Position numbers and translations under genes: made by a program
From: Streptomyces globosus
GTDB taxonomy: Bacteria; Actinomycetota; Actinomycetes; Streptomycetales; Streptomycetaceae
Reading direction: 5' to 3'
DNA: 64,000 bases
Assembly: GCF_003325375.1 (NCBI RefSeq)
Contig: NZ_CP030862.1
Span: 2,421,501 to 2,485,500 of the forward strand
Notes under the pieces: model-generated
Databases searched by the model: none
Told to the model about the DNA's origin: nothing
What the model saw: the letters and a program-made list of their open reading frames with translations, nothing else
Shown here: positions 6,990 to 59,750 of the stretch, piece by piece
Position numbering within the stretch: position 1 is the first letter of the stretch
How the letters are laid out: every line of letters begins with the position of its first letter

Positions 6990-7640
6990 TCAACCGAACG
7001 ACGGGACGATCTTCTTCTTGCCGCCCTGTTTCTTCCACGAGATGCGGGCGTCGAAGGTCTTGCCCTTGGCCGAGACGAAACCCGTGCCCTGGATGGTCTT
7101 ACCGGCCGCCAGGTCCTTGCGCTGCGCATCGGTGAAGGTCACCTGGCACCAGGACCGCGGTGGCTCGTCGTCGGAGCCGAAATCAGGGATGATCTTCCTG
7201 GCCTGCGCGTCCCAGGTGACCTTGCAACCGAAGGTCTTGCGAGTCCGCGCGCTGACGAAGTCGTCGATTTCCAGCGCTTGGCCCGCCAGCAGCGCCGCGA
7301 CCTCCGCCGGCGTGAACGTCCGGCCAGACCACTTCGTCGGCTTGTCCGGCACCTCCAGCCGGAACCCGACGAACTTGCGACCCCTGAAGGTGCCCACGCC
7401 GAGCGCACCGGTGGCCGGGAAGGGCTTGTTCTCCTTCGACCTCGCCTCGAACGAGATCGTTTCGCCCGCGAGCAGCTTTGCCACCTCGTCATCGCTGAAC
7501 TCGTGGCCCGACCAGACCTTCTTGAAGACGACCCTCTTCGGGCCACCTGGAGCGGCCTGCCACACGCCCTCGGCGCGGGCGGCGCCGAGCTGGTCTTCCA
7601 GGCCCAGCTCGGCGCGCATGGTTGATGCGTTCTTCGTCAT
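6990..7640 (-). CDS. Protein built of three topoisomerase-C-terminal-type repeats
   Basis: 216 aa; ATG 7640 overlaps the stop of the upstream small gene as ATGA, so translation is coupled. Three copies of one pattern are visible: WSGHEFSDDEVAKLLAGETI, WSGRTFTPAEVAALLAGQAL and CQVTFTDAQRKDLAAGKTI. Each is followed by a hydrophobic/charged run ending near 'GRKFVGF', 'RKTFGCKVTW' or 'GKTFDARISW'. This F-T/S-x-x-E-x-x-x-L-L-x-G-K layout resembles the repeats at the C-terminal end of type IA topoisomerases and in DUF3945-like proteins, where they bind single-stranded DNA. No catalytic topoisomerase domain is present. Its place in a transfer operon suggests a DNA-handling accessory role. Confidence 0.55.
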   Translation of the reverse strand: MTKNASTMRAELGLEDQLGAARAEGVWQAAPGGPKRVVFKKVWSGHEFSDDEVAKLLAGETISFEARSKENKPFPATGALGVGTFRGRKFVGFRLEVPDKPTKWSGRTFTPAEVAALLAGQALEIDDFVSARTRKTFGCKVTWDAQARKIIPDFGSDDEPPRSWCQVTFTDAQRKDLAAGKTIQGTGFVSAKGKTFDARISWKKQGGKKKIVPSFG

Positions 7641-7924
7641 CGTGGCGAGCTCATTTCGCCGGCTTGCGCCGGCCTGAGCTTCCGGCCCTTCTCGGTCGTC
7701 AGCGGGTACTTCGCCTTGTCGCTGGGGCCCAGCCCGGCCTTGCCGTACTTGCGCTCGACTTCGTCCAGCGACGAGGGAACCCCCGGACCCGGACCCGGAC
7801 CTCGGGGCGCGAGGCCGGCGCGGCCATGCCCGCACACCCGGGTCCTGGACACAGAGACCTGACAACCCCACGCCCTGCCGCGCTGACGGACGGAAGAGGG
7901 CTTCTCCTTGCTCCTCGCGGTCAT
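7637..7924 (-). CDS. Small basic protein between coupled transfer genes
   Basis: 95 aa. The ATG at 7924 overlaps the upstream stop, and its own stop overlaps the next start, both as ATGA. This double coupling is the main evidence that it is real. The C-terminal half has a conserved-looking core (SLDEVERKYGKAGLGPSDKA) after a Gly/Pro-rich, Arg-rich first half. I do not recognise the family. Confidence 0.6.
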   Translation of the reverse strand: MTARSKEKPSSVRQRGRAWGCQVSVSRTRVCGHGRAGLAPRGPGPGPGVPSSLDEVERKYGKAGLGPSDKAKYPLTTEKGRKLRPAQAGEMSSPR

Positions 7925-9021
7925 CGGATCGGCCGCCCTTCCCGCTCGCGTTCGAGCCTCGACTGCTTCCTGGTCGCCTCACGGGCCATGTCCCGGAGAT
8001 GGATCGCCTCCTTGTGTGTGATCGGCGCGTCATGAAGGTTGTGCGAGCCCCGCAGGAAGTTCTCCGTGCGGTCGGCGATGGAGTATGCGAGCGCCTGCTC
8101 GATCACCGCGCTGGTCTGGCGCACCTCGTCCAGCTCGTCGCGCACCTTGCGCAACAGCCCGTCCCGCTCGCGTTCGACAGCCTCGATGCTCATCAACCGT
8201 GTCAACACGCTGCCCAGCAGCGGGTCGCGGGAGCGGAACAGTTCCACGGCGCGCTCGGTGGCGGGATCGGCATCAAGGCGCAGGTCGAGCTGTGCCAACA
8301 GGAACGCCATCACCAGCGTGCCCTGGCTCAGCCGCCGGCTGAACTCCCGAGCGGCGCTGTCGCTCACGCCCAGCTCACGGACCGCGGCTGCTCGCAGCTG
8401 CTCCCGGAGCGCGTTCATGACGCTCTCGGGCAGCGCCTTGATGTGAGGCTGGCTCTGCATGCCGACGAGCCGGAAGCCGGACTGGGGGAGCGTGGCGGTC
8501 TCGGCTGTGCTGCCCGAGCCCCTCTTCGAGGGCGCGCTCTGCGCGGCGCGCCGATCACCGGTGAACTGCAGCGATCCGGGCCCCACCTGCTCGGGCTCGT
8601 CCGGTGGGGCGATGTCGTCGGCCGCAGGGCCCGCCGGCACACCGCCCGGGAGCACCCCGTCAGCGGTGTTCTGCCCGCCGCCGGCGCCACCGCGCTGATG
8701 GGATCTGCCGGCGCGTTCGGAGTTGCCGACGTCGGGCTCGCGGTCCTGCTCCAGGTTCGGGCGATCCGTTCCGGCTTCCCCGTCGAGGTCAGCCCGCGGA
8801 CCTTCGACCCCGAGTTGAGAGTCGGTGGCCCCGGTCTCATCGAACCGCACCTCCGGCTCGGGTGTTGGCGCCGCAGGCCCAGGCCGTGCGGCCTGAGCCT
8901 GGACGCGCTTCAACTCCTCGCTTCCACCCCGCCGGTAGGCGTCGAGGAAGGACGTGTCCACATCCATCACCTCGTCGGTGGGCGTGGCCGCCTCCAGCAT
9001 CTCTGCGAAGTCCCGGCTCAT
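7921..9021 (-). CDS. Conjugation-operon protein of unknown function, disordered N half and helical C half
   Basis: 366 aa; ATG 9021 overlaps the stop of the MobC-like gene (ATGA). Residues about 35-170 are rich in Gly, Pro, Glu and Asp and look unstructured. From about residue 185 on the chain is strongly helical (SVMNALREQLRAAAVRELGV and EAVERERDGLLRKVRDELDE). No catalytic motif is seen. Coupling to a relaxosome gene upstream and two small genes downstream points to DNA processing or relaxosome-channel contact, but this is inference. Confidence 0.65.
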   Translation of the reverse strand: MSRDFAEMLEAATPTDEVMDVDTSFLDAYRRGGSEELKRVQAQAARPGPAAPTPEPEVRFDETGATDSQLGVEGPRADLDGEAGTDRPNLEQDREPDVGNSERAGRSHQRGGAGGGQNTADGVLPGGVPAGPAADDIAPPDEPEQVGPGSLQFTGDRRAAQSAPSKRGSGSTAETATLPQSGFRLVGMQSQPHIKALPESVMNALREQLRAAAVRELGVSDSAAREFSRRLSQGTLVMAFLLAQLDLRLDADPATERAVELFRSRDPLLGSVLTRLMSIEAVERERDGLLRKVRDELDEVRQTSAVIEQALAYSIADRTENFLRGSHNLHDAPITHKEAIHLRDMAREATRKQSRLEREREGRPIR

Positions 9022-21697: not shown

Positions 21698-21997
21698 CCA
21701 TCGACGAGTGGCCCAGGAACCTGCTCGTCGAACTGCACTGGCCGCAGCCGCGCACTCACCAGGCCTTACACGACCGTGGAAGACCACGACGTCGTCGTAC
21801 CCAAGAGCGTGTCGGTGAATGAACAACGCGAGCAGCCGCAGCTCCGGCCGTTTCTGCATGATCAGCGGAGCTGATCCGGTCTGGCCTTCGGAAGATCACG
21901 TCCACGCCAGGAGTGCAGCCGTGAGCCAGGCGCTCCGCTGCAGAGCAGCGCCGGGGGTCTCACTGCCGAATCCATCACATCTTCCGGGGAGATCGCC

Positions 21998-22270
21998 ATG
22001 CCCGGGCGCACCGAGCACACCCTCCTCTACTACATGTCGACGACGCCCTCGCCGAGCAGGGCGTCGCCGCAGTCGAAGGCGCGATCTCTGGCATCAGCCG
22101 TCGGCCGCTGGCCCGCGAGGTGGAGCGTCTGGACACCAGCACCCCGGGCTGGTTCGCCATGTTCCGCAGGCTGGTGCCCGTGGACTGGCTCATCGACGCA
22201 ATGCGTGCCTCCGCCGCATGGGCACCGTCCCCGCCCTGCTCGGCGTGCTCTGGCTGCCACGCTGTCCAGT
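21998..22270 (+). pseudogene. Frameshifted small gene
   Basis: It starts at ATG 21998 with GGGGAG seven bases upstream (MPGRTEHTLLY). After a run of TAC the coding signal jumps frame to HVDDALAEQGVAAVEGAISG and RRLVPVDWLIDAMRAS. It decays before the cloverleaf structure. Function unknown. Confidence 0.4.
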
Positions 22271-22297
22271 GTTCGTGGATGCGGCCCTTCTTGGCTC

Positions 22298-22546
22298 GGT
22301 GGGGGGTGGCGGCCGGGGGTCACAGGTCGGGCGGGGACGCCCCGGAGGGCCTGGCGGCCCTCCGGGGTGGTCTGGCGGGCGCCTTCGGCGCGTTCACCGC
22401 CAGACCATCCCGCGCGAGCGCGGGACGCCAGGCCGGGCGCCTTCGGCGCGTTCACCGGCCTGGTGGCTGGCCCTGCGCAGCAAGCTGCGCGCACCGGGCC
22501 AGCCATCACCGCCCTTTGCTGTGACCCCCGGCCGGCACTCCCCACC
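22298..22546. repeat. Cloverleaf-like inverted-repeat structure
   Basis: Two 28-bp arms, 22298-22325 and 22519-22546, are complementary at 26 of 28 positions. Between them lie five consecutive hairpins: 22340-22367 (12-bp stem), 22369-22406 (10), 22408-22425 (7), 22428-22463 (9) and 22464-22505 (10). Hairpins two and four share an identical loop-side sequence beginning GGGCGCCTTCGGCGCG. Such nested folding is typical of single-strand origins (like sti of pIJ101) or of telomere-type single strands. The exact role is unknown. Confidence 0.8.
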
Positions 22547-22583
22547 GGGCCCGCCAATAAACCGGCTTTGACCTGCGGTTTTC

Positions 22584-22620
22584 GCTGACTCGTGGTGCGA
22601 AATGCTGTAAAGTTTGTCTT
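22584..22620 (+). promoter_or_regulatory. Promoter-like element ahead of the 393-aa gene
   Basis: AAATGCTGTAAAGTTTGTC lies at about 22600-22618. The matching AAATGCTGTAAGGTTT precedes the P-loop kinase at 24197. TAAAGT/TAAGGT could be the -10 box in both. Confidence 0.4.
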
Positions 22621-22675
22621 GTCGGAAGGGGCGGCACACCCCGACCGGCGACCAGTGTCTAGGGAAGGAAATCGA

Positions 22676-23857
22676 ATGACCCGTCAGCTACTCCCCGCCT
22701 CTCTGGAGAACCGACGCAGGGACATCCCGGTCGTGGACTCGCTCCCGGCGAAGGGGTTCCCGGGGTACGTGAACGGCCTCCGCCGCATGGGCACCGTCCA
22801 CGACGTCTACGGCTGGACCAACGTGCTCGCGCACATCAACATGTCGGCCGACGAGGCATACGCCCTCACCGACAAGCGCAGCCCGCACGCCCTGTACGAG
22901 CTGATGCTCATGTCGGCCGGAACCGAGCCCCGTCCGGGGCTGCACGACCACTCGCCGGAGTTCGGCCGGGCGCTGGGGGTCATTGCGGCCCGGTTCGCGG
23001 AGCACTGCCGCGCCTACCAGCTGAGCCCGGTGGTCTCCTGGAGCTACGACCCCCACACCGTCGACCGCGAGTCCATCCAGGGCGAAAAGCGGTTCCACGC
23101 CCACCTTGTGGGCCGTACGCAGGCCGAGCGCGCGGCCGTCGCGGCGCGGGCGGTGCGGGCGGGGCGGCTCTCCCCCGTCCGGTCGCGCCGCATCGTCGAG
23201 GAGGCGTCCGTTCTGGGGGCGCTGATCAGCACGGACATCGTGGACGGGGACGCCCTGCGGGTGCTGGAGCCGGTACCGGCGCTCTCCACCCACACGGCCA
23301 CCGCGACGGCGCAGTACCGCCTGCCGGACGGCTGGGAGAGCCTGGCCAGCCCGGATCTGCACGCCGACCTGACCTACATCCACCGCAAGCTGCGGCGGAT
23401 GTACGACGAGATCACGCGCGTGTGCACCACCGGCACGGCCGGAATGTGGCGGCGGCCCGTGGTCCGGGAGTTCGACCCGCAGGACATCGACGTACCGCTG
23501 CGGACGGCGACCCGGGCGACGCTCGCGCACTACCTCCGGGGGCTGCGCCCCGAGCTTCTGTCCGAGCCCGTGGAGCGGTCGCGGAAGGCGTACGTCTACC
23601 CGCTCGCCGATCTCGCCTACGCGGTGACGATCGCCGAGCAGGACGCGGGGGTGTTCCTGCACCTGCGCACCAACGTGTTCAGCGACCTGGGGGGCGCAGG
23701 AATCAGCATCATGGACGGGGTGATCGTCAAGACGAAGAAGGGAGTGGGCGACATGAGCCCCGCAGAGACCGCCGGGCGAGCCGCGTTCCAGGGCGACTTC
23801 CTGCGGATGCTCCACCGCCACCCCCAGGCCGCACGAGCCCTGTTCCCCCGCCTGTAG
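22676..23857 (+). CDS. Unrecognised 393-aa protein with a His-x-His motif
   Basis: ATG 22676 has AAGGAA upstream. The central stretch VVSWSYDPHTVDRESIQGEK followed by RFHAHLVGRT has a His-Ala-His motif in a hydrophobic strand. This could fit a GalT/HIT-type nucleotidyl transferase or an HUH replication or relaxase fold. A Tyr-rich helix (YIHRKLRRMYDE) lies further on. The C-terminal part (VFLHLRTNVFSDLGGAGISI) looks enzymatic rather than DNA-binding. It sits between the cloverleaf and another hairpin-rich stretch, which would suit a rolling-circle replicon, but I cannot place the family. Confidence 0.7.
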   Translation: MTRQLLPASLENRRRDIPVVDSLPAKGFPGYVNGLRRMGTVHDVYGWTNVLAHINMSADEAYALTDKRSPHALYELMLMSAGTEPRPGLHDHSPEFGRALGVIAARFAEHCRAYQLSPVVSWSYDPHTVDRESIQGEKRFHAHLVGRTQAERAAVAARAVRAGRLSPVRSRRIVEEASVLGALISTDIVDGDALRVLEPVPALSTHTATATAQYRLPDGWESLASPDLHADLTYIHRKLRRMYDEITRVCTTGTAGMWRRPVVREFDPQDIDVPLRTATRATLAHYLRGLRPELLSEPVERSRKAYVYPLADLAYAVTIAEQDAGVFLHLRTNVFSDLGGAGISIMDGVIVKTKKGVGDMSPAETAGRAAFQGDFLRMLHRHPQAARALFPRL

Positions 23858-23864
23858 AACCGCA

Positions 23865-23893
23865 GGGCCGGACCCGGTCACCGGGTCCGGCCC
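23865..23893 (+). terminator. Hairpin terminator after the 393-aa gene
   Basis: The 13-bp stem GGGCCGGACCCGG / CCGGGTCCGGCCC with a 3-base loop begins eight bases after the stop. Confidence 0.8.
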
Positions 23894-24190
23894 CCGGTCG
23901 GACCACCCGCCCCGCCCCCTTCGTGATGATCATGAAGGGGGCGGGCGCGCGGGAAAAGGACAGCCGCAAGCGGCTGGCGTCCGCCCCTTCAAGCTCCCTT
24001 CGGTCGCGGGGCGGACCCAGGGGAAACGCCGCCCCCTGAGTGGCCTGCGGCCACGGGCGGCTCTCTTCTGCCCTCCGGGCAGGCGCTGCGCGCCGGGCCC
24101 CTTGAAGCTCCCTTCGGTCGCGGGCCCGCCCCTGCGGGGCCAAGGAGCCGCCTCCGGCGGCACCCGAAGCGGCCTGCAGACCGACATGGA
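23894..24190. other. Hairpin-rich non-coding stretch
   Basis: It contains the hairpin CCCCTTC...GAAGGGG (about 23918-23941), CAGCCGCAAGCGGCTG, and two copies of AAGCTCCCTTCGGTCGCGGG about 115 bp apart. No gene is seen. Together with the cloverleaf it flanks the 393-aa gene with structured DNA. Confidence 0.6.
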
Positions 24191-24245
24191 CGGCTCAAAA
24201 TGCTGTAAGGTTTTTTGTGTCAAACCTTGCAGAGATGAGGCGCAC

Positions 24246-24818
24246 ATGCGACGGGTCGCACTGTTCGGGCCCCCGGCCACCGGGAAATCGACGCTCGCCC
24301 GCTGGCTCTCGACGGAACTGAACGAACCCCACACCGACCTCGACGACATCCTGTTCACCCCCGAGGGGCCGCTGCCGCTGGAGGAGTTCCGCCGGCAGGC
24401 CGCAGCGATCACCGCGACCGACGGATGGATTGTCGAAGGGAACTTCTCCAAGCTCGCGGACGTCGTCTGGCACCGGGCCGACACCCTGATCTGGCTCGAC
24501 TTCCCGCTGCCGCTGATCCTGTACCGGATCGTCCGCCGGAGCCTGCGCCAGCTTGCCGGCCGCGAGGACAGCGCCCAGGCCCGGCGCCTCACCTGGTCCG
24601 CGGCGTTCTTCGCCCGCCGGTCCCTGCTGCGCACCGCGATCCGCAAGTACCGGACCAACCGGCCCCGGTACGCCCGGCAGATAGCCGAGACCGCCGGCCT
24701 GGGGGTCGAGGTCGTACGGCTCCGCAGCCCGCGCCAAGTCCGGCGCTGGAGGCAGCAGACAGCGAAAGGGCCGGCGGAGAGCCGCTCACGAGCGGCCCGG
24801 CACACCACCGGCCCTTAA
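24246..24818 (+). CDS. P-loop kinase (topology-modulation/adenylate-kinase-like)
   Basis: 190 aa from ATG 24246, with GAGATGAGG upstream. VALFGPPATGKSTLARWLS is the Walker A loop, HTDLDDILFTP an early acidic substrate/metal line, and DGWIVEGNFSKLADVV plus ADTLIWLDFPL fit the small nucleoside/AAA-type kinases annotated as DNA topology modulation protein. The Arg-rich lid (RIVRRSLRQLAGRED) is present. The substrate is unknown. Just upstream, AAGGTTT and AAACCTT flank TTTGTGTC as an inverted repeat that may be an operator. Confidence 0.75.
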   Translation: MRRVALFGPPATGKSTLARWLSTELNEPHTDLDDILFTPEGPLPLEEFRRQAAAITATDGWIVEGNFSKLADVVWHRADTLIWLDFPLPLILYRIVRRSLRQLAGREDSAQARRLTWSAAFFARRSLLRTAIRKYRTNRPRYARQIAETAGLGVEVVRLRSPRQVRRWRQQTAKGPAESRSRAARHTTGP

Positions 24819-24906: not shown

Positions 24907-25503
24907 GTGATCCCCCGCAACCGCCCCGTGATCAACGAACGGGACATCGCCGAGAGAGCCGGCGTCCCCCTCACCACCTGGAGACGCCGGGACGCACCAG
25001 CTTTCCGGCAACGGGTACCCGCCCTCTTCGACGGCCGCGTACTCGTCTACGACCAGGCCCAGGTCCACGCCTACCTCAACGGACAGCCCATCCCCCCGCT
25101 GCCCGCCTCACCGCACCCCGACGACCTGCTCAACGACCAGGAAGCCGCAGCCCTCCTCGGAGTGACACCCGGCACCATCCGCGCGTACGCCAGCCAGAAC
25201 TACCTCCCCAGAGGCACCACCGTTTACGGCCTCCGCCTCTGGACCCGCCAGGACATCGAAGCCCGCCGCGACACCCCGCCCCGCCAAGGGCAGGGCGGCG
25301 GACGCCCCCCGGGCAAGAGCGGCCCCACTAAGGCGCACGCCTACGCAGACGACCCCCGCCTCCGCCTCGCCGCACAAGCCCTCACTGCCTCACCGGACAC
25401 CCCCCGCACGCGCCTCGCTGCCGCCCTGGCCGAGCAGCACGGCAGCTCCACCCGCACCTGGGAACGCCTCCTCGCCCAGGCCGCCCGCACCCCCGCCCAG
25501 TGA
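24907..25503 (+). CDS. Two-HTH DNA-binding protein (MerR/excisionase-like)
   Basis: 198 aa from GTG 24907. Two winged-helix-like units are visible: INERDIAERAGVPLTTWRRR and LLNDQEAAALLGVTPGTIRA, the second with the 'W-x-R-x-D-I' end (LWTRQDIEARR). A basic Pro/Gly linker and a helical tail follow. It is probably a regulator or an excisionase/AlpA-type protein. Its stop overlaps the next tiny gene. Confidence 0.75.
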   Translation: MIPRNRPVINERDIAERAGVPLTTWRRRDAPAFRQRVPALFDGRVLVYDQAQVHAYLNGQPIPPLPASPHPDDLLNDQEAAALLGVTPGTIRAYASQNYLPRGTTVYGLRLWTRQDIEARRDTPPRQGQGGGRPPGKSGPTKAHAYADDPRLRLAAQALTASPDTPRTRLAAALAEQHGSSTRTWERLLAQAARTPAQ

Positions 25504-25625
25504 CAGAAGTCCATCCATCACAAATCCGGCTGGGCCACCTTGCCGCCGCCAAGCACGCCGGCCGTGGCTGGGGCTGCACCTGCGGCGCGGACAACCCCAG
25601 CGACCACGACAACATCAGCGCTTGA
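25500..25625 (+). CDS. 41-aa Cys-containing small protein, coupled to the HTH gene
   Basis: GTG 25500 overlaps the HTH stop as GTGA and the frame ends at TGA 25625. The protein has GRGWGCTCGADNPSDHDN, with a Cys-x-Cys pair. The coupling is the main support. It overlaps the 3' end of the opposing pentapeptide gene by 11 bp. Confidence 0.55.
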   Translation: MTEVHPSQIRLGHLAAAKHAGRGWGCTCGADNPSDHDNISA

Positions 25626-26955
25626 TGCGGCCACGGATGGCAAGGACGGCGAGGGCGAGGAGGGCGGGTTCGAGGACGCGGGAGGTCATCTCGATGTAGG
25701 TCCCGATGGTGGTCAGGTCCTGGCCGCTGGAGCGGAAGACCACGGAGTTGAGCGTGACGTTCAGGGCCTTGTCGAAGCGTTTGCCGGTGAACCTGTCCCC
25801 GGTGGGGTTCTTCACGTCCTGCTTGTCGATGACGAAGGTGACGGTGCCGCCGCCCGCCGGGACGGTGCCGGTGGCTTTCTGCTTCGGGGACGACATCGGC
25901 AGGCCGAAGGCCATCAGCAGCACGACGGTGGCGACCATGGCCGCGGCGAGCCAGCCCAGGGCGCGGCCGGCGCGCAGACCGTAGCCGGAGAGCAGCCAGT
26001 ACGCCCACAGCAGGCGGCGTTCAGCTTTCGGAGTGCCGCTGCGGTCGTGCCGGCGCATCTCGCACTCGCCGTAGCAGAAGCCGGCGGCCCCGGGTTCGTT
26101 CTTGCCGTCCTCGAACGCCTTGCGGAGCTGCCGGTACAGGGGGGCGATGTCGTCGGGGTCCGGGGTAAGGACGGGGTCGGGGTGGTGCAGGCCGGTACGC
26201 CACCGGCCGAGCTCGGGCGGAGCGCCGACGGGGACAGAGAGCTGTCCGGCGGTCTGCGCCCGCCAGTGCTGCTCCTCGGCCAGCGTGCGCCGACGGGTCC
26301 AGCGGACCGGGGATATGCCCTTGCGGTGCCAGCCGGTGGGGGTGGAAGCGAGGGTGGTGCGGCCCTCCAGCCGGAGCTGGTCGAGGTGGAAGGCCCCGGA
26401 GAACAGGCAGTCGGACAGGTCGGTGTCGGTCAGCACCAGATGCGCGGCGTCCACCCCCTGCACCGACACCACTCGCACCGCCCCGCTCCCCGACAACGTG
26501 CTCTCGTCCACGATCGCGGTGAGGGCGAGAGGGGCCTCGAACACCGCATGCCCAAGATCCACAGAAGCATGGCGAACCCGGACGGTCGCGGTCGACTGCC
26601 AACGGGTCCGCGTACACATCACCTGTCTCGCCGCGACCTCCAGCATTACCGGTGCCCCGAACACCGCTCCCGACAAATCCACCGTCCCCCCGCACACCAC
26701 CGGGCCCCACCACGAAGTCACCAAGAACTGCACCTCGCCGAACCAGGCGTTGCTGGAGAACCGCGCCCTGTCAAACCAGGCAGTGCCGGAGAACTGCGCC
26801 AGGTCGAACCCGGCCTCTCTGGAGAACCGCGCCCGGTCGAACCTGGCGGTGCCGGAGAACTGCGCCCGGCTGAACCCGGCCATGCCGGAGAACTGCGCTT
26901 CGCTGAACCAGGCGTCGCCGGTCCAGTCATCGGCCCCCTTTGACCGCCCGGACAC
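25615..26955 (-). CDS. Pentapeptide-repeat membrane protein, 5' end replaced by an IS fragment
   Basis: The frame from GTG 26955 encodes 446 aa. Residues about 12-75 are pentapeptide repeats (AQFSG, ARFDR, ARFSR). A soluble middle follows, then two membrane segments (ALGWLAAAMVATVVLLMAFG and LEPALLALAVLAI). The first residues come from an IS5-type transposase reading DSVSVRAVKGG in another frame, so the original N terminus was lost at about 26943. Whether the remaining protein is made is uncertain. Pentapeptide proteins often resist toxins or scaffold membranes. Confidence 0.65.
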   Translation of the reverse strand: MSGRSKGADDWTGDAWFSEAQFSGMAGFSRAQFSGTARFDRARFSREAGFDLAQFSGTAWFDRARFSSNAWFGEVQFLVTSWWGPVVCGGTVDLSGAVFGAPVMLEVAARQVMCTRTRWQSTATVRVRHASVDLGHAVFEAPLALTAIVDESTLSGSGAVRVVSVQGVDAAHLVLTDTDLSDCLFSGAFHLDQLRLEGRTTLASTPTGWHRKGISPVRWTRRRTLAEEQHWRAQTAGQLSVPVGAPPELGRWRTGLHHPDPVLTPDPDDIAPLYRQLRKAFEDGKNEPGAAGFCYGECEMRRHDRSGTPKAERRLLWAYWLLSGYGLRAGRALGWLAAAMVATVVLLMAFGLPMSSPKQKATGTVPAGGGTVTFVIDKQDVKNPTGDRFTGKRFDKALNVTLNSVVFRSSGQDLTTIGTYIEMTSRVLEPALLALAVLAIRGRIKR

Positions 26956-45824: not shown

Positions 45825-48800
45825 TCAGTACCCCATCCCGTAGTCGTCGTCGACTTCGGGCTGATCGATCTCGATGCTCGGCGTGTAGACCGGGCGCCTC
45901 GCGCCCGCGGCCACGGCATGCGCGGAGCGGCGCTGCGAGCCTCGGGTGCGGGACGCCGCCGCGTCTTGAGAGATCACGTCGCGCTTGACCACCGAGTCAT
46001 CGACGGCGATCACGGCGTGGTCCAGGCTGTGCCTTCCGGTGGAGCCCAGCTGATCCAGCTGCCACGACATCTGCACCCGAGCCTTCAGAGCCGCCGAGGA
46101 CGCGAACTGCTCGTTCTTCTCGCCGTCGTAGACGCTCTCACGGTTCTTGGCCGCCTCGACCAGATCGGCGAACGCGCCGGCGTAGGCCATCCGGTCCATC
46201 AGGGTACCCCGCAGCGACACGTCTTCTTCCAAGTTGCGGATGAGCCCGGTCGCCGGGTCCTCCAGCGCACTGGCCACGCGGGCCACGTACTCCGGGTTGA
46301 CCCTGACCCCGAAGCCGTCCTTCGATTCGTAGAACTCGATGAACTGCTTTTCCCACTCCTCGGCCGCAGCCTGGACGGGCTCACCGTCCAGGAATGCCGT
46401 GCGCCACTGGCCCGGGCCGACACGTTCGATGCTGCGGCCCCTCCAGAGATCACGGCCGGGGCCCTGGAGCATCGCGTATTTGTGCCGGGCCTCGGCAGCG
46501 TCGTGCTTCGCCTGCAGGATCGACTGGGTCACCGGGTAGGTGACCTCCAGGACGGCCTTGAGATCCTCGCCGCGCAGCGCGCGCACGGCGCGCTGGCTGA
46601 ACGCGCCACCCAAGCCGGTGCCGTGGGACTTGATCGCCGTGGCGAACATCGAGGCTTCCTGGTCGGATTGGGTGATGCCGGGCGTGCCCTGTGCATCGCC
46701 CAGGTTCCGGGCGTAGTCCTCGAGCTTCCTCTCGCTCCCCTTCGCGCCGGTCCTGACACAGACCTCGCGCACGCTCTGCAGGTGTGCCTCGCGATCCGCG
46801 AACGTCAGAGCCGCACCGAACTCACCACGCTGCGCCCGGCGGTACAGCCCGCTCAGCTCTTCCGTCACGAACTGCTGGGCGAGCCTGACGTCCTCCGGCG
46901 AATCCGAACCCGTGAGGGCCCGCAGCCGGAGCCGGTTGGCCTCGCTCCGCGAACTCTCCAACTCATGGGCCATTCTGGCGTTCTTGGAGAGCGCGACCTG
47001 GGTGTCCAGCGACACCTGCATGGCCAGCGGGTGTGAACCATCGCCCCTGACCACTCCGGTGTCCAACAGGTTGGCCGGCACCGAGAGCTTTGCCAGGGCC
47101 TCGGCCTTGGCTGCCTCGCTGTGCAGCTTCACCACGGCGACGGCATCACCGTCGAAATCGCCGTCGAAGCAGGCGTCCATGACCGGGTTGATCGCCGCGC
47201 CGGTGAGCCGGTCGTCGATCGCCACCCGCATGTAGCGCACACCGGCGTCACGGAGCACCGGGTCACGCCACACCAGCGCGTGGTCGCCCTCGGCGAGCCC
47301 CAACTTCGCAGCCTTGACCGAGCTGAGGGCGACTTGGTCGACGTCCAGCCGTGGGTCTGCGGTCCACACCATCGTCGCCGAGTCGGTGAGCCGTGAGGAC
47401 ATCAGCCCGGTCTTGAAGATGTTGCTCGTGCCCGTCAGCACTCGGTTCTGGACGTCGGTCGTGATTGCTTCGAAGGCGCGCTGAGCGCGCGAGACCGATT
47501 CGCTCATGCCGCGACGCACCTCGGCGCGCTTCTCGGCAGGCAGACCCTGGCTGTCCAGCTGCTCGGCCATGTAGCGGTAGCGGCAGGCCTCCACGAAGAC
47601 GTCCTGGTAGCTGCGGGTGTAGTCGTGCGTGACGGAGGACCCGTCCTCGAACTCCTGACCACTACGCAGATGCGAGGACATCACCGGCAGCTTCCACGAG
47701 CTCGCGCTCACCGTCTCGGTCTGCTCACCGGTCGGATACGTGAGCGGAAACGGGATCTCCATGTCGCCACCGCGGTCGCCGATGAGGTCGCCGAAGGACT
47801 CGCGCATCGCCATGATGTTCAGTCCCGGGAGCTGGCCCGCCCTGCGCGGCTGCGTGCGCAGCAAGTCGGGCATCGGGATGAACCGGCGCTCGGTACGCTC
47901 GTCGAGGCCCTCGGCCTGGCCGATCACGCGCAGCGTGCCGTCAGCGTCCATGTCCATGCCGGATACCAGCAGGTACTCACGCAGGCTCGACTCGGCCCCG
48001 CTGTTGTGGCCGTAGAACTCGCGCATGATCGCCGGACAGTCCTGAGACTGCAGCGCCCAGGCCAGTTGAGCGGAGGCCTTACGGCCCTTGCCGGCACGCA
48101 CCTGCTCGTCGTCGTAGATCTTCGTCTTCTCGTCGACGGCCATATGGGTGACCACGAAGCGCATCTCGCCCAGGGCACTCGGCCGCAGTTCTCCGTTGGG
48201 CGAGCGCAGATCGGAGACGTTCCCGCTCATCAGCTCGCGCGCCGAGCCCGCGTTGCGCCGGGAGATGAGGCTGAACGGACTCATCACCACGTCCAGACCC
48301 GGGTTGGCGCGGAACCAGTTCACCTCTTCGACAACGGCCTGCCGCTGCGCGTCGTGCAGAGGCATGTCCCGGTCGACGATCAGCGAGATCACGCCCTTGT
48401 TGCCGTGCAGATCCGAGATCTTGTCGCCCACGACGAGATCGCGCTCCCGACCGCCGGTCCCGCGGATGCGGTGGCGCCCGGCGAATTCCTTCGACACGAC
48501 GATCGGGTCATCAGCCGTCCAGCCGCCGAAGGTCATCAGCGCCGTCTTCGCCGGTGCGGTGACCTCGGAGGACTGCATGATCGTCGAGGCCGTCATCTGC
48601 TGACGGTCGAACGGGTCGTACCGCAGCGTCTCGAGCTCGGGGAGAGCCATGAGCGGCGCACGCTGTCCGGCCACGCTCTCGTCGCCCGGCACGATCCGAC
48701 CATCGCTGCCGACCTGGGCCTGAGTGGTCAGGTACCGCACGATGCCCTGGTTGGTCGCGCCCCCGGTCATCACCGGGTCGAAGTAGCCGCCGGGCGCTGC

Positions 48801-51377
48801 CACGTTGTTCCGGTCCTTGCCGGTGAGCACCGCCATGTTCCGCCCGCCGGTGAGCCGCCAGGCGTCGAAGTGGTTGTCATCAGCCGGGTCGGTTCGGTCG
48901 CGCTGGGCCCTGTACTCGGCGTAGACGGTTGAGCCGGCCTTGATCTCGTTGGAGTAGCGCACACGGCGCGCCTCGGTCTGCAGGATCGCTGCCGTCCACT
49001 CGTCCAGGTGTGCCTTGAACTCGCCGGTGGACTCGTCCCGCCGGTACGTGGTGGCGCGCTCGATGTAGTCGACGGGGTGCCTGGTGCCGTAAAGCTGTGA
49101 GTAGACCGTGTTGAGTGAGGAGGGCTCGCCGGTCTCGCTCCGCCCGGTGATGACGTCACCGGCGATCTGGTACTGGATGCGCTCGTGCATGAGCTGCTCG
49201 TAGCCGCGCAGGCGCGTGCGCTCCTCGACCGAGGTCGGAGCCTCGCCTGGGGTCTGGGCCGTGATCGTGGCCTGGTAGCCGGGCACGATCAGGGCGTTCT
49301 GCCCGCCGGCGAAGGCGGTGGTGATCTCGCCGTACTCGCCGACATCGAACACCTGGCCGATCTCGCCCGAGATCGGAGTTCCCTTGCCGTCACGGCGAAG
49401 CTTCTCGCCACTCCAGCGAATGACGCCGTGATCGTCGACCAGGATCTCGGCGACCGTCGCCGCGTTGCGCTCGATGCTCTCGCGCACGGTGACCCCGATA
49501 CGCCGCATGAACGCGGATTCGTGATCGGCGATCGGCACGGAACGCTCGGCGTTGAAGCGGACGAGCCGGTCCTTGAACCGGGTCGTCTGGAAGGTCGAGC
49601 CCATGATCTCGTCAGGGGAGATCTCGCAACGACGAAGCGCTGAGGCGAGGTTGTCGAGGTTCGACCACTGCCCGGTGGGGCTGGTCATGTATCGCGCCAC
49701 CCGCTCCGGGTTGAAGCGCTGATCGACCCACTCGCCGTCGACGTCGTGGGGCTCCGCCTCCCAGGTCCCGATGAGTTCGAAGGGAACGTCCTCAGCGTGC
49801 TGTCGGACCTTCTCGACGGCGGTGCCGCCGTAGACGAGGTTGCCCATCTCGGGCGTCTCCTCGGCCTGCAGCTCGCCGATCTCCTCCAGCCGTTGCCGGT
49901 ACAACTCTTCGGTCGCACCCGGGCGCAGCAGTTCGCTGTGGGCGCCTGTGAGCACGTCCCAGTACGAGCGCTGGATCGCAGCGACCTCGGAGTCAGCCGA
50001 GTACTCCGGCGGTTCGATCGCATCCAGCTGTCCGCCGGTTCGCTCCAGCTCCGTCTCGGCACGGGCAATGAGGTCCTCGACGCCGAGGGCTGCCCGCAGG
50101 TTCTCCCGAGCGCTCTCGACGGCGGTCTTCGCATAGGCCGCGGCCGACTCGGTGTCGATGAAAAAGGCCGGCAGTGAGCGGTTCTTCGCGTCCCGGCGCA
50201 GCATCACCTTCGAGCCGGGCCTAGGGCCGGACTCACCGGGGGCCACGTAGTCGCCGACCACGAACATCGAATCACGGTCACCGTGGTAGCTGTCGGGCAC
50301 ATCCACCACCATGCGGCCACGGCCGCGCTCCTGGTGCGTCGCGCCGGTCTCGCCGGCGGCGCGCCCCGGAACATCCGTACGCTCGACGCGATGTCCCTGG
50401 GCGAAGCGCAGTAGTTGGACGGCCTCCGCCGGCGAGGGGGAGTAGACCGCCGTGCCGCCGGGAACCCGGTGGTTCGTCGAGTAGCGCAGCACGGTGCCCT
50501 TGTCGTATATCCGAGCTCCGGCGTACTCCTCCTGGCGTGTGTCGATGAGGCGGATCTCCATGCCGGTCCCGGCGATCTTCGCCTTGATCTGACCTGGCTC
50601 GCGGTCGCGCATCACCGCGTAGGACACGCCCTGGGCCTTCAGCTCTTCGAGCAGTGCTGCCGAGCGCGCCACGGCGCGCCGGGACATGAAGCGGTTGCCG
50701 TCGACGCGGTTCGTCTGCGGGTTCCGGCTGCCGTCGATGACCCACTCGCGCACCTGGTCGTACTCCTGCCGGCTCATCTTGTCCATGAGCGCGGTGAGTC
50801 CCGCGGCGTCGTCGATCGTCATCGCGCGGCCTGCCTGGAACGGCCGGCCGTTGTCGTCGATGCCCCAGAGCACCATGTTCCCGCGCCGCGGGTCGGCCAG
50901 GGTCTCCACCTCGCCGCCGGCCACGCGTCCGATCGTCTCGTCCGGCAGGTACAGCAGCGCGGTTCCGGCGCGCTTCACGGTCGCGCGTTCGGACCAGGCG
51001 GGGTCATAGGGGCTGATCGGCAGCCGGGCCGACTGCGAGTCGACCTGGGCACCGACACCGGTGACGCGGGTGAACTCCCGCTGCAACTGCTGATAGCGCT
51101 CGTTCCGGGGGGAATGATCACCGAACTGCGGCTCGTAGTCGGACACCTTCTCCGCGAACGCCTGGTCGATGGCGGAGAGGCAGTCCGCGATGCCCAGCCG
51201 GGGGTCGGCCAGTGCGGTGGCCCGCCGGCCGAGGATCTCGTCGACTCGGGCGCGGATCGCCTTGGCCTGGGAGATCGGAATGACCTGTCCGGCCTGCATC
51301 CTGGCCTGCTCGACTGCCTTGTAGTAGACGTACTCGTAGAAGTACTTCCGCAGTCCGCGCGCCTTCTTCATAGTCAA
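45825..51377 (-). CDS. Single-chain, two-barrel DNA-dependent RNA polymerase (beta and beta-prime catalytic parts fused)
   Basis: 1850 aa from TTG 51377 (GGAAG five bases upstream); ATG two codons later at 51371 is the alternative start. Near residue 980 GDKISDLHGNKGVIS matches the beta-subunit line 'GDK.aGRHGNKGVIS' with both catalytic lysines. It is followed by LDVVMSPFSLISRRNAGSAR, which matches 'vDivlNPlGvpsRMNiGQ'. Near residue 1400 MDACFDGDFDGDAVAVV matches the beta-prime 'NADFDGDqMAVH' Mg-binding loop. After it come bridge-helix-like GAKGSERKLEDYARNLG and trigger-loop-like IKSHGTGLGGAFSQRAVRAL. Order beta then beta-prime in one chain recalls the YonO type of phage SPbeta. No alpha, omega or sigma gene is seen nearby. 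Confidence 0.9.
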   Translation of the reverse strand: MTMKKARGLRKYFYEYVYYKAVEQARMQAGQVIPISQAKAIRARVDEILGRRATALADPRLGIADCLSAIDQAFAEKVSDYEPQFGDHSPRNERYQQLQREFTRVTGVGAQVDSQSARLPISPYDPAWSERATVKRAGTALLYLPDETIGRVAGGEVETLADPRRGNMVLWGIDDNGRPFQAGRAMTIDDAAGLTALMDKMSRQEYDQVREWVIDGSRNPQTNRVDGNRFMSRRAVARSAALLEELKAQGVSYAVMRDREPGQIKAKIAGTGMEIRLIDTRQEEYAGARIYDKGTVLRYSTNHRVPGGTAVYSPSPAEAVQLLRFAQGHRVERTDVPGRAAGETGATHQERGRGRMVVDVPDSYHGDRDSMFVVGDYVAPGESGPRPGSKVMLRRDAKNRSLPAFFIDTESAAAYAKTAVESARENLRAALGVEDLIARAETELERTGGQLDAIEPPEYSADSEVAAIQRSYWDVLTGAHSELLRPGATEELYRQRLEEIGELQAEETPEMGNLVYGGTAVEKVRQHAEDVPFELIGTWEAEPHDVDGEWVDQRFNPERVARYMTSPTGQWSNLDNLASALRRCEISPDEIMGSTFQTTRFKDRLVRFNAERSVPIADHESAFMRRIGVTVRESIERNAATVAEILVDDHGVIRWSGEKLRRDGKGTPISGEIGQVFDVGEYGEITTAFAGGQNALIVPGYQATITAQTPGEAPTSVEERTRLRGYEQLMHERIQYQIAGDVITGRSETGEPSSLNTVYSQLYGTRHPVDYIERATTYRRDESTGEFKAHLDEWTAAILQTEARRVRYSNEIKAGSTVYAEYRAQRDRTDPADDNHFDAWRLTGGRNMAVLTGKDRNNVAAPGGYFDPVMTGGATNQGIVRYLTTQAQVGSDGRIVPGDESVAGQRAPLMALPELETLRYDPFDRQQMTASTIMQSSEVTAPAKTALMTFGGWTADDPIVVSKEFAGRHRIRGTGGRERDLVVGDKISDLHGNKGVISLIVDRDMPLHDAQRQAVVEEVNWFRANPGLDVVMSPFSLISRRNAGSARELMSGNVSDLRSPNGELRPSALGEMRFVVTHMAVDEKTKIYDDEQVRAGKGRKASAQLAWALQSQDCPAIMREFYGHNSGAESSLREYLLVSGMDMDADGTLRVIGQAEGLDERTERRFIPMPDLLRTQPRRAGQLPGLNIMAMRESFGDLIGDRGGDMEIPFPLTYPTGEQTETVSASSWKLPVMSSHLRSGQEFEDGSSVTHDYTRSYQDVFVEACRYRYMAEQLDSQGLPAEKRAEVRRGMSESVSRAQRAFEAITTDVQNRVLTGTSNIFKTGLMSSRLTDSATMVWTADPRLDVDQVALSSVKAAKLGLAEGDHALVWRDPVLRDAGVRYMRVAIDDRLTGAAINPVMDACFDGDFDGDAVAVVKLHSEAAKAEALAKLSVPANLLDTGVVRGDGSHPLAMQVSLDTQVALSKNARMAHELESSRSEANRLRLRALTGSDSPEDVRLAQQFVTEELSGLYRRAQRGEFGAALTFADREAHLQSVREVCVRTGAKGSERKLEDYARNLGDAQGTPGITQSDQEASMFATAIKSHGTGLGGAFSQRAVRALRGEDLKAVLEVTYPVTQSILQAKHDAAEARHKYAMLQGPGRDLWRGRSIERVGPGQWRTAFLDGEPVQAAAEEWEKQFIEFYESKDGFGVRVNPEYVARVASALEDPATGLIRNLEEDVSLRGTLMDRMAYAGAFADLVEAAKNRESVYDGEKNEQFASSAALKARVQMSWQLDQLGSTGRHSLDHAVIAVDDSVVKRDVISQDAAASRTRGSQRRSAHAVAAGARRPVYTPSIEIDQPEVDDDYGMGY

Positions 51378-51536: not shown

Positions 51537-54500
51537 CTACTTCGAGTTCATCTCGATGGCCATCGCCCTGTCGAACCGGCCGTCGGCCAGCACCTCCCAG
51601 CTCGGCAGCGAGGCCAGGTACTGGTAGAAGGCCGAGTGGACCTTCACCGTCGCCAGCGACTTCAGGTCCTCCTCGGTGACGTCCTCCTCCGCGAACACCC
51701 GCGAGCCCTCGTCCTTCACGTGGCCGTTGATCAGGCGGGCGGCCTTGGCGTACGCGTCCGAGCGGATCTGGCTGACGTAGGTCTGAGACCCATCGGCGCT
51801 GCGCAGTTCGCCGTCGCCGCCGACCGAGAAGTGCTCGCGATCCTGTTCCAACTCGGTCTGCGCGGACTTGTAAGCCTCAGCGATCTCGATGTCCAGGCTT
51901 CTGACCTTTGCCGAGCCGTCGGGATTGACCAGCATCTCCTTGCTGATCGTCCCCTCCGCGTAGAGCAGACGCCGCCGCTCGACGCTGACCGCCTGACTCT
52001 CGGCGACTGCGACACCGACCTCGACGTTCTCGATGAACTGGTCCTCGTCGAACATGCTCATCCCCTCGTACTCGTCGGGGTCGACGACCACCGGAGCGTT
52101 GGGGTCATGCCCCTCGTCCACCGTGGTCATCGTCGTGATGACCTCCATGACCTCGTCGGCGTAGACGTCCGGGTCCAGGCGCTCGATGTCGACCTCCCGG
52201 TAGCCGTAGATCTCCTTGTACTGCGCCTTCGCGTCCGCGGCCTTGACCGCCTGCCGCATGCGCTTCTCCAGCATCTTCACGAAGTCCGGCTGATTCATCC
52301 GCACGTCGAAGTCCATGGCACTGGACAGCGTCGGGATCGTCTGCAGTGAGTACGTGTGCCCCGGGTGCTTGATCGTGTCCCTCAGCAGCCGGACCGACAT
52401 CGGCAGGATCGTCTGGTTGCGGTTCCAGATCGGCGCATCGCCGGCCCGGAAGACGATCGAGTTGCGCGGCGAGAGGAAGGCCATGTCGTTGTAGCTGATC
52501 AGCGGCTCTTCCTTGGTGCTCATCGTGTAGGAGACCCGGCCCTCGGTCTTGCCGCCGATGACCTTGTCGAGATCCTGGCTGATCTGCTTGCTGTCCCTGT
52601 ACGAGCGGTGAGTCCTGCCGCTCATCTTCTCCAGCGTCTCGATCATCGAGTCGTCCGTGGATTTCAAGAACACGATGTTCGAGGTGTTGCCCTGCACGAT
52701 CTTGTCGACGCTCTCGCCGTAGACGTCGCGCAGTTGCTGCAGGGTCTGCAGGATGAGCGTGAACTGCTGCTCCTGGCCCAGGCCGATGGAGAGCATCGTC
52801 GCGAAGCCGTCGATGCCCTTGCCCTCCGACTGCAGGTTGCCGAGTTCGTCGAGCATGAACCGCGTGCGGTAGAGCGGCTTCTGGTTCGACTTCGTCATGT
52901 ACGACTGGTCGGCGCTCACATCGAACAGCTGCTTGACCAGAATCAGGATCAGTTTCGCGTACTTCATCAGGTGAGGCGGAGTCACCAGGAACAGCGCCTT
53001 CGGGGCCTCCGAGTAGCGAGACAGTTTCTGCGTGATCGCCCGTGCCTGATACGAGACCTTCTCCGGGTTGCCGCCGCCGGAGAAGTCGAGCCGCGTGTCC
53101 GGGTAGAGCGTGTCCCCGGCCTGGAAGGACAGGATCTTCCCGTCCCGAGTGCCACCCTCACGCACCGGCTTCAGCTCGCGCATCACGCCGTTCTTCACGA
53201 TCTTCTTGCCCGTCACCGGCTCGACCACGTAGTGCCGGCCATTGAGCGAGACCTGGTGGGTCTTCGTGAAGCTGAAGTAGAAGGTGCGCAGCAGCATCTT
53301 CGTCTGGGGGTTGACCAGCTCCAGCTTGATCCAGGTTTCGGCGCCGGGGAACTTGCCCTTGAAGTTGTACCGGGCCCAACCTTCGCGGCCGACGATCTCC
53401 TCGTGCTCGAAGTCCTCGCCGAGGTTCTCGGTGAACATCGGGTCCGCGTAGGCGGACCACACGGCCTGCTGACCGACGAGGTGGTCGCGCTTGACGTAGT
53501 TCGGCGCGAAGCGCACGCCGAGGCGACGCGGGAAGCTCAGGCCGGCCAGGTCGGTGTTCTGCGACGGCTTGCCCGAGGTCAGCGTCGAGATCGTGGGGTC
53601 GGTGAAGAACGACATGGCGGTGATCGCGATGCCGTACACAGAGGCGAGCATCTTCTCTGCGCCGGCCATCGAGCGCAGCGCGTTGTGGGCGTTGCCCACC
53701 ATCGTGCGCATGTTGTTGCGGGGCAGCGCTTCGCTCGCGTTGAAGTACAGGCTGAGCATGTCCTGATCGGCCTTGCCTTCCCACATGAAGGCCCGGGCCG
53801 CAGCCTTCGCCTGCTCCTCGGCCAGGGCGGCCGCGTCGTTGTCGAACTCGCCTGCCTTGACCCGCTTTTCCAGTTCGGCCTCAGGGTTCTTGACCTTCTT
53901 CGAGCTCATCTGCACGAAGAGCTGGTAGCAGTTGTAGAGCGTGACCTTGCCCCAGAGGTCATCGAGCTTCTGCTCGAGCAGCACCGGGTCCATGTCCAGC
54001 ACGGCTGCGGCGCTGCGCAGCTCCCGTTCCTCTTCCAGGTAGAAGTCGATGAGTCCGTAGGCCGCGCGCTTGAAGGCGTTGTTGGCGGCATTGGGCCAGA
54101 CCGGGTCCTCGCCGCCGTCGAGCGGAAAGAAGATCCCGGCGATGTTCTCCACATACAGTGCGCACTTGGTGAAGTTGCCTTCACGCGCTGCGTCGGCCGC
54201 CAGCCCCAGGGGGTTGTAGATGTCGGTCTTCATGGAGTTGATCAGGTTGAACTGCACCGGCTCGAACCCCCTGGTGACCAGGGGCACGTAGTTCTTCACC
54301 AGCAGCTCGCCCTTGGGGTCGTTGATGACCATGTTCGAGGGCTTCTTCTCTCGCGACCACATGTCGATGACCGGCTCGATGTACGTCTGGCCCTTACCGG
54401 CTCGGGTGATGGCCAGCACCATGGTGTTCACCGGCGCGGTATCGACTATGTACGCCCCGGCAGGGCGCTGGACCTCGTACTCCGGGAACGTCCAGTCCTC

Positions 54501-55583
54501 CTTGATCAGGGCAGCGACGGTCTTGTATGCGTTCGATCCGAAGCCGAGTTTGTCCCGGTTCTTGCCGTCAGGGTTGTACGGGATGCGTGTGGCGTCGTAC
54601 TTCTGTCGCAGGGTCTTGTCAGCGGGGAGGCCGGAGGCTTCGAACAGCTCGTCGCCGAAGACTTCGTCGATGATCGGCAGGGTCTGCGTCAGCGGACTGC
54701 CTTCGTCGTCGTCCATGGCCTCGCCGGCGTAATAGACGAGGTTCCCCTCCTCATCGGTGACGTCCTCCTTGGCGCGCTGGGCGACCTCGACAGTGCCCAG
54801 ACCCTTCTGCCTGAGCATCATGTGGCTGAGCATCGAGCTGACCTGCACGCTCGAGTGGGCACCGGCGTCAGGGAACCAGTCGTAGTTCTGCTGGATCTCT
54901 TCCGGCAGGGCGATGTGCTGGTCGTTCTGGTACTGGTTGATGTCGCTCGTGGTGTTCATCAGGTTCGCCGCGGCGACCCTCCGCGAGAACCACGTGCCGA
55001 TGACGAGGGCGACCATCAGACCCGAGCCGAGCGTGATGAAGAGCTTGAACCCCGAAACGTCGGCCAGCTGCTCTCCGACCGTCGTCGCGCTCTTCTCGGG
55101 CTCAGCCGGCCTGCCGGCGCCGAGGTTGCCGTCCTTCGCAGCGGTGTACCAGACGGGGACCGGAACAGCCCCAGCGCTGGGGTGACACTTAGCCTTCACG
55201 TCCGGGTTGCCGTCTTCGGTCAGGGGTCGGTAACACTTCACGACCGAGCCGCCCGCACCCGTCATGGTGTCCTGAACGTAGTACGCACTCGGCTTGCCGC
55301 TGCCGCTGCCGGACACACCCGAGCCCACGAACACGCCCGCCGAGAGCACCGCCGCGGCGATGAGCGAGTAGAAGACCCAGGCAACGACCGTCACCAGCAC
55401 TCCGGCAATGACCGCGACGACGATGCCCGGTCTGGTCGACCTCAGGGTCAGGAACTTGCTGCGGTCCAGCTGCTGGTTGTCGTGGACGTCTCGGTTCGTC
55501 AGCGTCTCGCCGGGCTTCCGCGCCGAGATCTTCTCCCAGCTGCTCGCCTTCGGCCGCGCCGCCTTCCGCCTGTTCGTGGCCAT
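51537..55583 (-). CDS. VirD4/TraG-family coupling protein
   Basis: 1348 aa from ATG 55583. Two N-terminal membrane regions (residues about 53-87 and 180-198) flank an extracytoplasmic loop. Walker A is AITRAGKGQT (391-400), with NDPKGELLVK next (421) and Walker B FMLDELGNLQSE (about 908). ILQTLQQLRDVYGESVDKIV is the typical coupling-protein helix after Walker B. The protein is roughly twice the usual length, with a large insertion between the Walker motifs and a C-terminal extension of about 300 residues. It brings the relaxase-DNA complex to the secretion channel. Confidence 0.9.
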   Translation of the reverse strand: MATNRRKAARPKASSWEKISARKPGETLTNRDVHDNQQLDRSKFLTLRSTRPGIVVAVIAGVLVTVVAWVFYSLIAAAVLSAGVFVGSGVSGSGSGKPSAYYVQDTMTGAGGSVVKCYRPLTEDGNPDVKAKCHPSAGAVPVPVWYTAAKDGNLGAGRPAEPEKSATTVGEQLADVSGFKLFITLGSGLMVALVIGTWFSRRVAAANLMNTTSDINQYQNDQHIALPEEIQQNYDWFPDAGAHSSVQVSSMLSHMMLRQKGLGTVEVAQRAKEDVTDEEGNLVYYAGEAMDDDEGSPLTQTLPIIDEVFGDELFEASGLPADKTLRQKYDATRIPYNPDGKNRDKLGFGSNAYKTVAALIKEDWTFPEYEVQRPAGAYIVDTAPVNTMVLAITRAGKGQTYIEPVIDMWSREKKPSNMVINDPKGELLVKNYVPLVTRGFEPVQFNLINSMKTDIYNPLGLAADAAREGNFTKCALYVENIAGIFFPLDGGEDPVWPNAANNAFKRAAYGLIDFYLEEERELRSAAAVLDMDPVLLEQKLDDLWGKVTLYNCYQLFVQMSSKKVKNPEAELEKRVKAGEFDNDAAALAEEQAKAAARAFMWEGKADQDMLSLYFNASEALPRNNMRTMVGNAHNALRSMAGAEKMLASVYGIAITAMSFFTDPTISTLTSGKPSQNTDLAGLSFPRRLGVRFAPNYVKRDHLVGQQAVWSAYADPMFTENLGEDFEHEEIVGREGWARYNFKGKFPGAETWIKLELVNPQTKMLLRTFYFSFTKTHQVSLNGRHYVVEPVTGKKIVKNGVMRELKPVREGGTRDGKILSFQAGDTLYPDTRLDFSGGGNPEKVSYQARAITQKLSRYSEAPKALFLVTPPHLMKYAKLILILVKQLFDVSADQSYMTKSNQKPLYRTRFMLDELGNLQSEGKGIDGFATMLSIGLGQEQQFTLILQTLQQLRDVYGESVDKIVQGNTSNIVFLKSTDDSMIETLEKMSGRTHRSYRDSKQISQDLDKVIGGKTEGRVSYTMSTKEEPLISYNDMAFLSPRNSIVFRAGDAPIWNRNQTILPMSVRLLRDTIKHPGHTYSLQTIPTLSSAMDFDVRMNQPDFVKMLEKRMRQAVKAADAKAQYKEIYGYREVDIERLDPDVYADEVMEVITTMTTVDEGHDPNAPVVVDPDEYEGMSMFDEDQFIENVEVGVAVAESQAVSVERRRLLYAEGTISKEMLVNPDGSAKVRSLDIEIAEAYKSAQTELEQDREHFSVGGDGELRSADGSQTYVSQIRSDAYAKAARLINGHVKDEGSRVFAEEDVTEEDLKSLATVKVHSAFYQYLASLPSWEVLADGRFDRAMAIEMNSK

Positions 55584-59685: not shown

Positions 59686-59719
59686 GCCACACAAGACCTC
59701 TCGACAGGACTGGCGATCC

Positions 59720-59750
59720 GACTGTGAAATCAGTCGAAATCTATCATGCG
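59720..59750 (-). promoter_or_regulatory. Promoter/operator-like element ahead of the Clp gene
   Basis: On the minus strand GATAGATT (-10-like TAGATT). On the plus strand GTGAAATCAGTCGAAATC has two GAAA units, here spaced 10 bp. Confidence 0.4.

Follow-up and report, generated by a model that had tools for sequence, protein, structure and literature searches.

A mobile five-hairpin DNA element of Streptomyces, kept in shape by compensatory change and possibly acting as a folded single strand

The window, the whole 64-kb stretch of Streptomyces globosus DNA analysed here, resembles a conjugative or mobilisable region that has integrated into a 6.86-Mb contig; genes for a MobL relaxase (60605-62878, E 2.6e-107), a conjugative coupling protein (51540-55583) and an AAA protein (57922-59754) all lie on its minus strand. 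Besides the genes for the MobL relaxase, the T4 coupling protein and the AAA protein, this mobile region also encodes on the minus strand an 1850-aa protein (45828-51377) matching PF00562 (RNA polymerase beta) above cut-off and PF00623 (beta-prime features) just below, with the motifs HGNKG and DFDGD. From its sequence this protein is a candidate single-chain two-barrel RNA polymerase, and relatives occur in 13 plasmid records of Streptomyces, Gordonia, Rhodococcus, Staphylococcus and Lactococcus. Repeats are found at 27-322 (two copies of a 147-bp direct repeat) and at 26724-26921 (33/66-bp tandem repeats within a pentapeptide-repeat gene).

Our subject is a 249-nt element (22298-22546) in which five hairpins stand inside an outer clamp. 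The window resembles plasmids L039 and L042-L046 from 22281-22298 as far as 25478-25529, and its similarity to 10 other loci sets in at 22281-22302, i.e., at the left arm of the element; these limits therefore define a 3.2-kb cassette with the element as its left edge, followed in order by a gene for a 393-aa protein, a hairpin-rich spacer, a P-loop kinase-like gene and a helix-turn-helix gene. Between the element and the first gene lies a conserved leader segment (22560-22675, plus strand), presumably with a promoter role, which carries TGCTGTAAAGTT at about 22603-22614 and then GTCGGAAGGGGCGGCACACCCCGAC, and which is present upstream of close relatives of the gene and in G546, also where the element is missing (L048, L049). 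The part at 22603-22645 is promoter-like, with a leader containing the hairpin GTCGGAAGGGGCGGCACACCCCGAC, and this too is kept in element-less relatives.

The 393-aa protein (22676-23857, plus strand) is an orphan of no known family: searches gave no Pfam, NCBIfam, PHROG or PADLOC family above cut-off and no PDB match, and AlphaFold modelling with six sequences gave a mean pLDDT of 35.5 and no usable fold. Its gene was found in 12 of 394 genomes of the family, in 1 of 396 genomes of the phylum (its own) and in 12 of 72,556 plasmid records. The protein may be an enzyme, and it plays no part in the explanation proposed below. A role as replication initiator was our early favourite, because an initiator annotation was absent from the parts read of two plasmids (51 of 51 and 51 of 59 features); it was dropped as unsupported, since distant relatives adjoin FAD oxidoreductase, methyltransferase or ATP-grasp genes (names that are our own reading where the ORFs are unannotated). 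Kinship with HIT/GalT was rejected at an hhalign probability of 0.5% (for an alignment of HxHxQ-motif loci only), and kinship with RC Rep at 1.1%. Also rejected was the fold as an obligatory partner of this gene, since relatives exist without a comparable fold upstream (z of +2.3 for L048, -1.9 for L049 and -2.8 for L038). Other, weaker folds were seen at L037 (z -7.7), the look-alike L054 (-8.3) and G546 (-4.1). L037 and L054 have in common a long inverted-repeat structure, unlike the element, with two compensatory changes in its arms. In L037 it stands ahead of the 393-aa gene; L054 is outside the list of gene relatives, so that this structure precedes a different gene too.

The second hairpin-rich segment, the spacer at 23858-24245, corresponds in part to a 60-bp tandem repeat that lies between the 393-aa and kinase genes of the G353 plasmid and is related to window positions 23942-24010; in L071 the 60-bp unit (7625-8193, and repeats) runs through 9.5 perfect copies with palindromes in each. 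The cassette is completed by a 190-aa P-loop kinase-like protein (24246-24818, plus strand), whose relatives are annotated as adenylate kinase, and, at its right end, by a 198-aa helix-turn-helix protein (24907-25503, plus strand) with PF12728 above cut-off.

Folding recovered the outer stem of the original prediction, with the left arm (22298-22325, the left edge of the conserved cassette) and the right arm (22519-22546) forming 26 Watson-Crick pairs of 28; of the other two positions one is G-T and one is mismatched. Further inward the stem continues with 22329-22334 paired to 22509-22514, and as placed in alignment A4 all 6 pairs of this helix showed two-sided changes in the covariation test described below. 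Five adjacent hairpins follow one another as had been predicted, but the stems have 7 to 17 pairs and bulges, rather than the 7-12 bp first proposed. Hairpin 1 (22339-22368) has 13 pairs and a TGGC loop, and hairpin 3 (22408-22425) has 7 pairs, both supported by fold and alignment. Hairpin 2 (22369-22406) has 10+5 pairs, a TTC loop and a 5-nt bulge, GTTCA, at 22392-22396. Hairpin 4 (22427-22464), again with 10+5 pairs, has an identical tip, in agreement with the claim that two hairpins share their loop-side sequence: GGGCGCCTTCGGCGCGTTCACC occurs at 22377-22398 and at 22435-22456, and with at most one mismatch the shared motif has only two sites in its own genome, both inside the element. Hairpin 5 (22465-22504) has 17 pairs, and its tip context GCGCGCACCGGGCC is kept across groups. 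Read on the minus strand the hairpin 2 tip is C-GAA-G, and tips of this kind are very stable in DNA.

We folded both strands with RNA and with DNA parameters, comparing the element with dinucleotide shuffles. The z values were -13.2 (RNA, plus), -13.7 (RNA, minus), -14.7 (DNA, plus) and -14.2 (DNA, minus), and none of 200 shuffles was as stable as the element in any of the four combinations; 57 other 250-nt segments of the 64 kb averaged a z of -0.64, the lowest being -4.1 (25 shuffles each). The regularity is thus beyond that of random GC-rich DNA, as originally claimed. Fold strength was equal on both strands, and the fold alone singles out no active strand. The other ground on which the original prediction could have been refuted, a conserved gene through the region, fails too: the plasmid records listed show no annotated gene across the element, except for a 'hypothetical protein' label over the part of the element at the record start of pSHJG2, and the arms of close relatives differ by single-base indels. 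This circular record (L040/L047 junction) begins inside the element, where sequencing perhaps stopped.

BLAST with a 421-base query found related DNA in 18 plasmid records, 7 of them covering at least 80% of the query; the smallest record was 51 kb, with no small rolling-circle plasmid among the matches listed. Across the genus, 125 of 295 genomes matched at E<=0.001 and only 4 of 295 held nearly the whole element, the remaining matches being short or partial pieces that we left out of the copy count. A covariance model, built from 17 cores and with most of the clamp outside it, was positive in 3 of 121 genomes. Plasmids and genomes also revealed class B, which has the same plan and a different clamp (10 of 392 genomes at E<=1e-8, including class A cross-matches). 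A prophage-like IMG/VR contig, two of whose ORFs, on our own reading, may encode a terminase and a portal protein, carries a third version; a linear S. dengpaensis plasmid carries a fourth. Among 50,697 phage records there was no match for the three versions tried. A search of the open-licence literature, in which most papers from subscription journals are missing, turned up no account of the element. Beside several class A and class B copies, at about 22270-22297 in the left flank, we observed a loose GCGCAGC-like motif.

From 26 loci given to the search, 24 copies were aligned, from plasmids, chromosomes and the one prophage-like contig. Left out were pSHJG2 (which needed joining), identical or second-strain plasmids, and the partial copies L008, L041 and L089 (L008 and L089 were searched and fell below the limit; L041 was not submitted). 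L094 and L101 are degenerate and were left out of part of the counts. In the 22 distinct rows 97.3% of base-pair cells were paired and 35 of 66 pairs had changed on both sides, figures that lean towards the structure because the 24-copy alignment was fitted to it; two-sided changes in 26 of 66 pairs had been evident before, in an alignment made from sequence alone and given its structure by RNAalifold. The covariation score was 0.394 against 0.126 in shuffles, none of 500 shuffles reached any of the five covariation measures, and structures slid along the alignment as controls were at most 50% paired.

The arms form 35 to 44 pairs in 21 of 24 loci (30 in L051, 17 in L094 and none in L101), and between groups they have been swapped wholesale. 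When one representative of each of five arm types was cross-paired, its own partner was always best by at least 22 kcal/mol (-65 to -104 kcal/mol, against -24 to -50 for foreign partners). The G353 clamp, a 41-pair stem, differs in sequence from the window's clamp along much of the stem and encloses hairpins that are almost identical. Bulged tips are conserved as well: GTTCACC on hairpin 2, and GCACC on hairpins 4/5 of several groups. The fold is thus conserved through compensatory change, and the shape itself seems to serve a function, most likely at a stage when the DNA is single-stranded.

The main rival, which we consider rather unlikely, is a structured non-coding RNA of mobile elements, whose plus or minus transcript folds and serves as regulator, decoy or scaffold; compensatory changes that match those of RNA families in strength would also be expected of such an RNA. 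The 22 well-formed copies have 1336 Watson-Crick, 80 G-T, 10 A-C and 13 other cells, with most of the G-T cells stemming from a few helix-end pairs; the changes keep almost entirely to Watson-Crick pairing. Variants at Watson-Crick pairs in these copies comprise 3 G-T against 10 A-C, a set of only 13. SRP RNA from 24 of 25 Streptomyces genomes, treated in the same way, gave 489 Watson-Crick, 142 G-T (22%) and 3 A-C of 648 cells; because its G-T variants are few relative to SRP RNA, the element appears to lack the signature of a plus-strand RNA. A minus-strand RNA would be compatible with these wobble counts, and three helix-end G-T pairs, common or nearly constant on the plus strand, would suit a plus-strand RNA. 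Also in keeping with a transcript, a co-directional gene lies within about 150 bp downstream among the copies inspected (class A, class B, L102 and L105), with L051 as the exception. Against it, Rfam gave no match in the window at the gathering threshold (a permissive scan gave weak matches far below cut-off), no promoter-like site was found at 21850-22700 in a scan for the sigma-70 consensus alone, and conservation ends at the left arm, which leaves no conserved promoter upstream. The folded RNA offered in the original prediction is a possible but less favoured reading, with no Rfam family, no sigma-70-like promoter and no G-U excess to support it.

The cassette is common to otherwise dissimilar replicons, namely circular plasmids of 54-88 kb, one 210-kb linear plasmid and chromosomal contigs, and several carriers are typed MOBF or have an annotated MobF. 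The element itself is mobile: L051 shares only 22289-22517 with the window and lacks the genes, so that the element also travels without them, and among the 13 class A copies aligned 12 stand ahead of the 393-aa gene, the other groups preceding different genes. None of the 13 plasmid records with the polymerase-like gene is a class A carrier, and a link between element and polymerase through hairpin promoters was rejected. The sharp left edge that the element gives the cassette, and L051, would fit a site for recombination or mobility that is recognised in its folded DNA form, on a principle like that of integron attC or HUH-transposase hairpins, and that mobilises the cassette or the element itself. 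We find this decidedly unlikely, since the neighbouring recombinases differ or are absent and none is conserved, no matching structure was seen at the right edge and no cassette arrays were seen; an HUH-like HxH in the 393-aa protein is our own reading, set against the 1.1% for RC Rep. The intergenic position and very stable hairpins would suit a transcription insulator or bidirectional terminator of GC-rich hairpins, as would an upstream gene reading toward the element in L052, L055, L102 and L105; yet the left neighbour is transcribed away from it in five class A loci, no terminator-like site (including a GC hairpin with T-tract) was found at 21850-22700, and conserved bulges and outer arms exceed what a terminator needs, which makes this reading very unlikely. 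If the element were derived from the end of a linear replicon, or a relic of one, it would fold like the Streptomyces telomere 3' overhang, in which, in the part of PMC4513846 available, a terminal palindrome pairs with an inner one around hairpins whose loops close by sheared G-A pairs. The minus-strand C-GAA-G tips and some copies 0.6-2.6 kb from a linear end recall this, but copies also occur within circular plasmids, and within linear plasmids at distances of up to 96 kb from an end, and two class B replicon ends (L052, L055) show other sequences. An active telomere is largely refuted, and the relic seems highly improbable. Of the integration or telomere-type structure first suggested, the left edge of a mobile cassette survives as a loose fit and the telomere does not, the element being internal in the replicons seen.

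Our preferred reading, put forward tentatively, is that the element acts in cis as a folded single strand of DNA and most likely serves to start or process strand synthesis. We base it on the compensatory conservation, the pairing of arms with their own partners and the few G-T variants, on the lack of promoter- or terminator-like sites with a divergent left neighbour in five class A loci, and on the carriers, MOBF/MobF plasmids and one copy on a 6.4-kb unit with a rolling-circle-type Rep. This last copy is in G353, on a 33.8-kb contig that also bears the genes and is built of 6.3-6.4-kb direct repeats, whose Rep is related to the 'protein rep' of small plasmids (23 records) and which we read as a small rolling-circle plasmid probably assembled as a multimer. 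The replicon would pass through a single-stranded stage (the displaced strand of rolling-circle replication, the strand transferred by conjugation, or an extended gap), in which the outer arms would clamp and the five hairpins form; the bulged tips GTTCACC and GCACC would then be recognised by a protein encoded by the host or by the element, most likely to start complementary-strand synthesis in an sso/ssi-like manner or otherwise to process the strand. The single strand as active form, the reader protein and the priming role are what we infer. That rolling-circle Streptomyces plasmids need an sso, according to the accessible text of PMC3583192, fits this reading. Against the single-stranded site stand the linear plasmids and the prophage-like contig, where a rolling-circle stage is not known and which it explains only with an added assumption, the small number (13) of wobble variants, the plus-strand helix-end G-T pairs that would suit RNA, and template switching, which can keep inverted repeats complementary without selection. 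The single-strand origin of the original prediction is compatible with the rolling-circle carrier and the DNA-like base changes and is our best guess, a tentative one in which sso activity is putative.

Among the closest known systems are the single-strand origins (sso), such as Streptomyces sti of pIJ101, likewise non-coding, highly folded and dependent on structure over sequence; the element too is a non-coding, strongly folded region on a rolling-circle-type plasmid, a likeness of fold and carrier, whereas it also occurs on linear and large circular plasmids and has a fixed five-hairpin plan. The attC sites of integrons are single hairpins with an integrase and cassette arrays. Like them the element keeps its structure as the arm sequence changes, marks the edge of a mobile cassette and has extrahelical bases, which by analogy are likely read; unlike them it has five hairpins, no integrase or other constant recombinase beside it, and no arrays. 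GOLLD and ROOL are large RNAs that occur in mobile DNA. The large multi-branched fold of these ornate RNAs, as given in the part of PMC12286853 available, is shared by the element, which has no Rfam match, no known transcript and few G-U pairs. Streptomyces telomere 3' overhangs and parvovirus hairpin ends, in the accessible text of PMC4513846, share the outer pairing around GNA-type loop hairpins, whereas the element is internal, with five hairpins and a 35-44 bp clamp.

With more hesitation than for the single-stranded site itself, we suggest a possible, still doubtful, new class of mobile, shape-coded DNA sites with a six-armed fold, in which the clamp is swapped wholesale while complementarity and tips are kept, and which would be read single-stranded by a protein as an entry or start site shared by plasmids, phage-like elements and linear replicons. 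Structure-conserved DNA sites are few, and the comparative evidence here equals that used to accept RNA families. Each known kind, whether sso, attC, telomere overhangs or hairpin promoters, has opened a mechanism; here the evidence points to a DNA-like mobile five-hairpin site in a well-studied genus, and its natural arm swaps would allow direct tests of which strand is active and which protein reads it.
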